A DNA stretch of 64,000 nt, from assembly GCF_000970305.1 (NCBI RefSeq), contig NZ_CP009517.1, positions 62,001 to 126,000 on the forward strand, given 5' to 3'. A program made the translations under genes and the position numbers. The DNA comes from Methanosarcina barkeri 3. Lineage in GTDB: Archaea; Halobacteriota; Methanosarcinia; Methanosarcinales; Methanosarcinaceae. Positions 969 to 52,086 of the stretch are shown here, in pieces. Every line of letters begins with the position of its first letter. Position 1 is the stretch's first letter. Under the pieces are notes generated by a model that saw nothing but the letters and a program-made list of their open reading frames with translations, was not told the DNA's origin and did not search any database.

Positions 969-1112
969 CATTTGTATTCGGTTAAGATACGATCTATAAG
1001 AAATGTGTTATTTTTGTTGCCGCTTCTGTAAACCTAGAAATGTAAATCGAGATGTATAGATGATTTCAGTAGTCATTTTAACGTTAACAGGATCCTTAAC
1101 CGGATACAAATG
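969..1112. mobile_element. MITE, 144 bp, with 10-bp target duplication
   Basis: The element begins CATTTGTATTCGGTTAAG and ends with the inverted complement (CATTTGTATCCGGTTAAG read from the other side): 17 of 18 positions match. It is flanked by a perfect 10-bp direct repeat, AATTGTAGAT, at 959-968 and 1113-1122. No ORF is present, so it is non-autonomous. A second element with related ends and its own 10-bp duplication lies at 51888-52076. Confidence 0.8.
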
Positions 1113-10619: not shown

Positions 10620-10835
10620 TTATTTTCCATAATTACGCCTGGATAGGGAAACAAGACCTTTAGCAATCACCAGTGCGATAATTCCTATCAACGCTGCGGT
10701 TAAGAGAACCATAAACAGGTTTTCCTCATCAGCAAACTTGAACATGAAGTAAAATAAAATGATATCTATTATTGCTCCAATGCCCACCAAGGCTATTGCC
10801 GGGCCTCCTAAAGCTTTTCCAGTATCCCTGCTCAT
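10620..10835 (-). CDS. Small two-helix membrane protein
   Basis: 71 residues: a short polar start (MSRDTGKALG), two membrane helices (about residues 11-34 and 40-60), and a basic end SLSRRNYGK, so the C-terminus is probably cytoplasmic. GGATC lies before the ATG. No family is recognised and the gene stands alone between intergenic stretches. Composition and start context look like a real gene. Confidence 0.6.
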   Translation of the reverse strand: MSRDTGKALGGPAIALVGIGAIIDIILFYFMFKFADEENLFMVLLTAALIGIIALVIAKGLVSLSRRNYGK

Positions 10836-43641: not shown

Positions 43642-44133
43642 TCCATATTATAATGATTTTGTGTTTTAATTAATTTTTTGGTTGACAATAAGTTGGTTAA
43701 CATATCTAATATTCAAACTTCATGGATACCACATATTCTGAACTTAAACTTCAACTAAGGTTAACATTGAATCTGATATCATTCAAAAATTTGACAATAT
43801 AAAATTTATATTTAAATTTTAAGGCAAAGATAAAAGATATTTATTCAGAAACTAAAATTTATTGGATTATTGGCTAATACAATAAATCTTTCAAACTCAA
43901 AGCAAAAAATATTAATACTGAATCTTTCCGAAAAATGTCGCAAGTAAAGACAGGTAAGGGAAAGAGACTGATGAAAAAAGAACAGATGAAGGAAAAATGA
44001 TAGCTAAAAAAGAATATATGAAGGAAAGAGGCTGATGAAGGAAATATCAAACGAAAGAGAAAAGGAAACAACTTACCTTATTCTTAAACTCAATCTTATA
44101 CGAAAGTAACTCAAAAAGTCGAAAAAATAATAT
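43642..44133. other. AT-rich intergenic region
   Basis: No gene. A direct-repeat tract of gatgaaggaaag/gatgaaaaaag words lies at 43965-44050. It contains whatever promoter serves the small coupled genes at 43213-43550, but no single box stands out. Confidence 0.4.
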
Positions 44134-44204
44134 ACATCAGCCGGGATTCGAACCCGGGTTCGAGCGTTGGCAACGCCCGGTGATGACCGCTACACTACTG
44201 ATGT
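44134..44204 (-). tRNA. tRNA-Gly (GCC), copy 1
   Basis: 71-nt cloverleaf. Acceptor ACATCAG pairs with CTGATGT, the anticodon loop is TTGCCAA (anticodon GCC), and the T-arm is CCGGG TTCGAAT CCCGG. CCA is not encoded. Identical to copy 2 except for one acceptor base. Confidence 0.95.
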
Positions 44205-44214
44205 TCTATTATGG

Positions 44215-44287
44215 TGCCCAGACCCGGATTCGAACCGGGGACAACTGCCTCTTCAGGGCAGCGCTCTCCCACTGAGCTACCTGGGCA
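44215..44287 (-). tRNA. tRNA-Phe (GAA), copy 1
   Basis: 73 nt. Acceptor TGCCCAG/CTGGGCA, anticodon stem CTGCC/GGCAG with loop CTGAAGA (anticodon GAA), T-arm CCCGG TTCGAAT CCGGG. It lies 10 bp upstream, in transcription order, of tRNA-Gly. Confidence 0.96.
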
Positions 44288-44350
44288 GGCAGGTTAATTT
44301 AAAGTATACTTAGAGTGAATGATAACTTATTTTTTATTTTCGTTTTAACA

Positions 44351-44370
44351 TTCCGGAAAACTCTCCGGAA
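44351..44370. terminator. Hairpin in the Val-Phe tRNA spacer, copy 1
   Basis: TTCCGGA and TCCGGAA form a 7-bp stem with a 6-nt loop. On the plus strand it is followed by attttttaa; on the transcribed minus strand it lies between tRNA-Val and tRNA-Phe. It may be a processing or pausing signal rather than a terminator. The identical hairpin is at 44734-44753. Confidence 0.35.
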
Positions 44371-44381
44371 ATTTTTTAAGT

Positions 44382-44454
44382 GGGCCCGCTGAGATTCGAA
44401 CTCAGGACCTCCGCCATGTCAAGGCGACGTCATAACCGTCTAGACCACGAGCCC
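44382..44454 (-). tRNA. tRNA-Val (GAC), copy 1
   Basis: 73 nt. Acceptor GGGCTCG/CGGGCCC, anticodon loop TTGACAT (anticodon GAC), T-arm CTGAG TTCGAAT CTCAG. First tRNA of the downstream trio. Confidence 0.95.
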
Positions 44455-44516
44455 ATATTGTTTTTGTTTTTTGCATCTGGAAATACTTATCCGAAGCACT
44501 ACATTAAAAAAGTTAT

Positions 44517-44587
44517 ACACCAGCCGGGATTCGAACCCGGGTTCGAGCGTTGGCAACGCCCGGTGATGACCGCTACACTACTGATGT
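44517..44587 (-). tRNA. tRNA-Gly (GCC), copy 2
   Basis: As copy 1, offset by exactly 383 bp. The 3' acceptor strand is CTGGTGT instead of CTGATGT, turning one A-U pair into a G-U pair. Confidence 0.94.
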
Positions 44588-44597
44588 TCTATTATGG

Positions 44598-44670
44598 TGC
44601 CCAGACCCGGATTCGAACCGGGGACAACTGCCTCTTCAGGGCAGCGCTCTCCCACTGAGCTACCTGGGCA
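44598..44670 (-). tRNA. tRNA-Phe (GAA), copy 2
   Basis: Identical to the tRNA-Phe at 44215-44287, offset 383 bp. Confidence 0.96.
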
Positions 44671-44764
44671 GGCAGGTTAATTTAAAGTATACTTAGAGTG
44701 AATGATAACTTATTTTTTATTTTCGTTTTAACATTCCGGAAAACTCTCCGGAAATTTTTTAAGT

Positions 44765-44837
44765 GGGCCCGCTGAGATTCGAACTCAGGACCTCCGCCAT
44801 GTCAAGGCGACGTCATAACCGTCTAGACCACGAGCCC
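44765..44837 (-). tRNA. tRNA-Val (GAC), copy 2
   Basis: Identical to the tRNA-Val at 44382-44454, offset 383 bp. It is the first gene after the promoter at about 44900. Confidence 0.95.
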
Positions 44838-51797: not shown

Positions 51798-51887
51798 ATG
51801 TTTTCATAATTGTAAAAACAGGTGGTCTAAAAAATCAAATAATTTAACCAATGTGCTATATCTTGTTCATAACTTATGAAAACTTAT

Positions 51888-52076
51888 CATTGGTCATCGG
51901 TTAAGGAATTTTCTTGCCTGAAAGCTATCGATTTTACATTAAAAACCAGCCTTAAACTTTGGCCTATTTACGTGAAATCGATACATGGTTCCAGTTCACA
52001 ATTAATAAAAATGTTAGCTAAATGCTGAGTAAATTATGCAATTTATTACGATTCATCACTTAACCGAATACGCATG
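51888..52076. mobile_element. MITE, 189 bp, with 10-bp target duplication
   Basis: Left end CATTGGTCATCGGTTAAG; right end, read inward, CATGCGTATTCGGTTAAG. A perfect 10-bp direct repeat GAAAACTTAT flanks it (51878-51887 and 52077-52086). There is no ORF inside. Ends and duplication length match the element at 969-1112, so they form one family moved by a transposase not present in this window. Confidence 0.8.
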
Positions 52077-52086
52077 GAAAACTTAT

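Follow-up and report, generated by a model that had tools for sequence, protein, structure and literature searches.

The question raised by positions 51888–52076 of the window (the whole stretch of 64,000 nucleotides of Methanosarcina barkeri 3 that was analysed) is whether two inverted ends and a short flanking repeat mark a genuine transposable element and, if so, what moved it. The element measures 189 bp between its outer ends. The left terminal inverted repeat, CATTGGTCATCGGTTAAG (51888–51905, plus strand), and the right one, CATGCGTATTCGGTTAAG (52059–52076, minus strand), form imperfect 18-bp inverted repeats that agree at 14 of 18 positions. The 10-bp sequence GAAAACTTAT adjoins the element on both sides (51878–51887 and 52077–52086) and is an exact repeat. 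The element is short, contains no ORF of 60 aa or longer, and lacks a transposase gene. Its interior carries a palindrome, TATCGATTTTAC ... GTGAAATCGATA (51926–51984, plus strand). The first-pass annotation had reported a MITE with a 10-bp duplication here, and its coordinates, end sequences and flanking repeats were exact. The end pattern it described, CAT followed by 12–14 nt, needs correction, as the actual spacing is CAT, 7 nt and then CGGTTAAG. The window contains five occurrences of CGGTTAAG against 1.3 expected, a number reached in none of 100 shuffles. The fifth of these, at 10697, was considered as an element end and rejected; it has neither a correctly spaced CAT nor a partner end and is attributed to chance. 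The window also holds a tandemly duplicated tRNA-Gly/Phe/Val cluster (44133–44837, minus strand), with three tRNA genes at 383-bp spacing.

The element is a member of a dispersed family. A search of its own genome (a single contig of 4,560,446 bp), with the 189-bp element as query, returned 20 matches. Thirteen of these span at least two thirds of the element at 73–100% identity, the best full-length matches elsewhere reaching E 1e-22, and the others are either fragments or the end held in common with a partner insertion sequence (IS) described below. Matches are also present in 27 of 31 Methanosarcina genomes. The per-genome counts from this genus-wide similarity search are lower bounds, and copy numbers were taken from counts of the leftmost 29 bp, allowing three mismatches at most, which reach 52 in a single genome (G002); the reversed-pattern control gives zero in every genome. 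The mean identity among copies is 78% in the M. barkeri 3 genome, and some other genomes contain near-identical copies (mean 97% in G001). For 42% of copies the nearest neighbour belongs to the same genome, where 8% would be expected. Because identity differs by genome and same-genome neighbours exceed expectation, the data suggest bursts that occurred independently in different species, and an old, decaying population in this genome. The copies are intergenic: when the element is removed, no ORF of 100 aa or longer runs across the site of any of the eight own-genome copies examined. At two loci in G002 (L186, C2:61336–62050, and L187, C16:367343–368050) two copies stand in direct tandem and share the intervening 10 bp, for example AAAGTCAATT-MITE-AAAGTCAATT-MITE, with a period of 199 bp. 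Repeated insertion into one target or unequal exchange could each account for this arrangement.

Flanking duplications of a fixed length accompany many of these copies. From this genome and related ones, 67 copies that include both ends were collected together with their flanks. An exact 10-bp direct repeat is found in 36 of them, and a further 5 match at 9 of 10 positions. None of the 67 shows an exact flanking repeat of 5, 6, 7, 11, 12, 13, 14 or 15 bp. Mismatched pairs of left and right flanks, used as a control, match at all 10 positions in only 1 of 1973 cases. This control and the full-length matches elsewhere in the genome both bear out the earlier judgement that a chance arrangement is very unlikely. 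The duplicated decamers show a symmetric preference, with a purine, A and A/T at the start and A/T, T and T/C at the end (RAW....WTY); position 2 is A in 36 of 41 and position 9 is T in 36 of 41.

The history of the window copy can be followed in two related genomes. At the corresponding locus of G004 (L123), the target continues directly into the right flank as an unbroken TTGAAAACTTATTTATTTTATGCC, with a single GAAAACTTAT and no element; the sequence further left of this empty site is diverged. The uninterrupted target indicates a real insertion rather than a coincidence. In G026, a closer relative than G004, the element occupies the same locus with the same GAAAACTTAT duplication, and the flanks are 91% (left) and 80% (right) identical. 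Since the same duplication is found within diverged flanks, the insertion is older than the split from G026, and the window copy is an old one that a sister species also carries. Taken together, the dispersed copies, the duplications and the empty site strongly support the earlier claim of a MITE with a 10-bp target duplication.

A candidate for the mobilising element is found in the same genome. A genome-wide search for the end pattern, of the kind suggested in the first-pass annotation, identified two loci at which the ends enclose 1453 bp (2538229–2539681 and 3787007–3788459); the 10-bp duplications on either side, AAACAGTCTC and CTAATGTTCC, are exact. These two IS copies do not differ in sequence, and each encodes a 435-aa protein that matches Pfam DDE_Tnp_1 (9e-21) and the IS4-family model transpos_IS4_1 of NCBIfam (1.3e-74). 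The YREK signature Y-(2)-R-(3)-E-(6)-K is present in the translation as LYGARWDIELLFKEMKSKY (Y-GA-R-WDI-E-LLFKEM-K). The closest relatives of the protein, up to 95% identical, are from Methanosarcina, and no sequence relative was found in PDB. The closest named matches, by best-match comparison with a plasmid collection, are the haloarchaeal ISH8A and ISH8C, at ~33% identity. Exact 10-bp duplications flank 16 of the 20 IS copies examined across the genus, and the duplications mostly start with purine-A and end with T-pyrimidine, like those of the MITE.

The ends of the MITE and the IS correspond closely and have the same left/right polarity. On the left, the MITE matches one IS end at each of its first 23 bp (23/23), and the consensus of its right end across the family, CATGCGTCTTCGGTTAAG, agrees with the other IS end, CATGCGTCATCGGTTAAG, at 17 of 18 positions. 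No similarity between the two elements was found beyond 23 bp on the left and 18 bp on the right. Derivation of the MITE from the 1453-bp IS by simple internal deletion was rejected, since the likeness stops at these points and sharing is limited to the ends. The present IS copies also appear to be younger than most of the MITEs, because they are identical while the MITE copies of the same genome have diverged.

The ISH8 subgroup of the IS4 family is defined by a length of 1400–1800 bp, ends that begin with CAT and carry T at position 15, direct repeats of 10 bp and the YREK signature (PMC2266710). The partner IS, at 1453 bp, lies within this range, and its ends, CATTGGTCATCGGTTAAG and CATGCGTCATCGGTTAAG, show CAT with T at position 15 as in the published consensus; the 10-bp duplications and YREK are likewise shared. 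Judged from these sequence features, the partner IS fits the ISH8 subgroup at every point of the definition tested. However, ISH8 is described as having no apparent target specificity (PMC2266710), whereas the Methanosarcina insertions show the clear RAW....WTY preference.

Cross-mobilisation of the MITE in trans by the ISH8-type transposase of an IS with matching ends is, with a probability of about 0.92, the reading adopted here for what was observed: a family with its ends and duplications, an empty site, and a partner IS that agrees with it in ends and duplication length. The DDE transposase from the two identical 1453-bp IS copies (ISH8 subgroup, IS4 family) would recognise the common ends of ~18–23 bp in trans and move the 189-bp unit. 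Insertion would take place at AT-rich, mostly intergenic sites with the loose consensus RAW....WTY, and a 10-bp staggered cut at the target would give rise to the 10-bp direct repeats. The window copy was presumably moved by the 1453-bp IS or by a past relative of it, and the movement may have been by cut-and-paste, by analogy with studied IS4 elements. In G030, 40 MITE ends are accompanied only by broken transposase remnants, with no intact ISH8-type match. The partner may therefore differ in this genome or have been lost, and its MITEs are possibly stranded. In the draft assembly of M. spelaei, many contigs (L052–L059, L064, L066) break off at a common position within the ISH8-type transposase gene. 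These ends are probably assembly breaks induced by a repeat, which suggests that the IS is multicopy in this species.

The identity between MITE and IS is confined to the ends, and several end variants are present in the M. barkeri 3 genome, so that an IS group other than the ISH8-type element found here might have moved the MITE. This is very unlikely, as the ends, their polarity, the duplication length and the target preference all agree with the 1453-bp IS.

Mobilisation by an ISH8-type transposase may extend to other elements with similar ends. A 144-bp MITE in the window (969–1112) likewise has ends of CAT, 7 nt and CGGTTAAG and a 10-bp duplication, in this case AATTGTAGAT. The first-pass annotation had placed both elements in one family. 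The common end design and duplication length stand, but the single family is rejected: the 144-bp element differs in length, has its own set of copies, and has an unrelated interior, the best interior match between the two being insignificant (E 0.25). Because the terminal design and duplication length are common, these are most likely two MITE families that rely on one ISH8-type transposase or on close relatives of it. A third type (L037, 1001–1186; G000:C1:2174202–2174387) has one CATTGGTCATCGGTTGAG end, one CATTTGTATTCGGTTAAG end and an exact AAAATAACTT duplication, its two ends being of the two different kinds. Read in the opposite orientation, part of its interior resembles the 189-bp family (~70% similarity), and a MITE similar to it is present in M. 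spelaei (L056). The overall picture is best described as several MITE families served by one common mobilisation system.

It is highly improbable that the element is instead a multicopy structured RNA gene, or a regulatory RNA element, whose ends are complementary by chance. The plus strand does fold better than shuffled sequences (z −3.2) and the internal palindrome is conserved in the family. However, inverted ends together with an internal palindrome would be expected to give such folding above the level of shuffles. In the consensus fold of 49 aligned copies, covariation contributes −0.16 of −18.6 kcal/mol, and only 2 of 28 pairs show a compensatory change in any sequence; the palindrome is thus conserved without covariation. 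There is no Rfam match at the locus, and the folding, the covariation among the 49 copies and Rfam, taken together, yield no evidence that the 189-bp element functions as an RNA. Copies also occur at unrelated loci with 10-bp duplications, and these, together with the empty site, refute a structured RNA as the primary nature of the element. The least credible reading is an intergenic repeat that spread through recombination or slippage during replication, with no transposase involved. The intergenic placement of the eight copies would suit it, but the duplications are fixed at 10 bp, an empty site exists, and an IS shares both the ends and the duplication length.

Positions 51888–52076 are thus a genuine MITE of the ISH8 group, of a kind already known. 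The MITE ISH2 of Halobacterium has ISH8-related termini and is mobilised in trans by the ISH8 transposase, and a 10-bp target duplication is given for the ISH2/ISH8A cassette (PMC10264941). The ISH2/ISH8 pair of Halobacterium salinarum resembles the MITE and 1453-bp IS in combining a gene-less element with termini related to those of an IS, and differs in host genus and in interior, ISH2 being known here by description rather than sequence. The ends of ISH8A from pNRC100, CATCCGTCTTTAGTTAAG, are identical to the right-end consensus of the MITE at 15 of 18 positions, although its transposase shares only ~33% identity with the 435-aa partner protein. No paper describing the 189-bp family was found in the open-access literature searched, and an earlier description in ISfinder or in the main review of archaeal IS diversity (10.1128/MMBR.00031-06) is possible.

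The locus represents an unannotated, genus-wide Methanosarcina repeat family that is tied to a named transposase group. It is conceptually not new, and offers a parallel to ISH2/ISH8 of Halobacterium in a distant archaeal lineage. There is a slim chance that the family goes beyond a parasite and has been recruited at some loci as a regulatory or RNA-processing signal, a suggestion prompted by its conservation across much of the genus, the retained palindrome and the mostly intergenic position. The defined pairing of MITE and transposase could also be put to use in methanogens, as a tool for transposition or as a marker.
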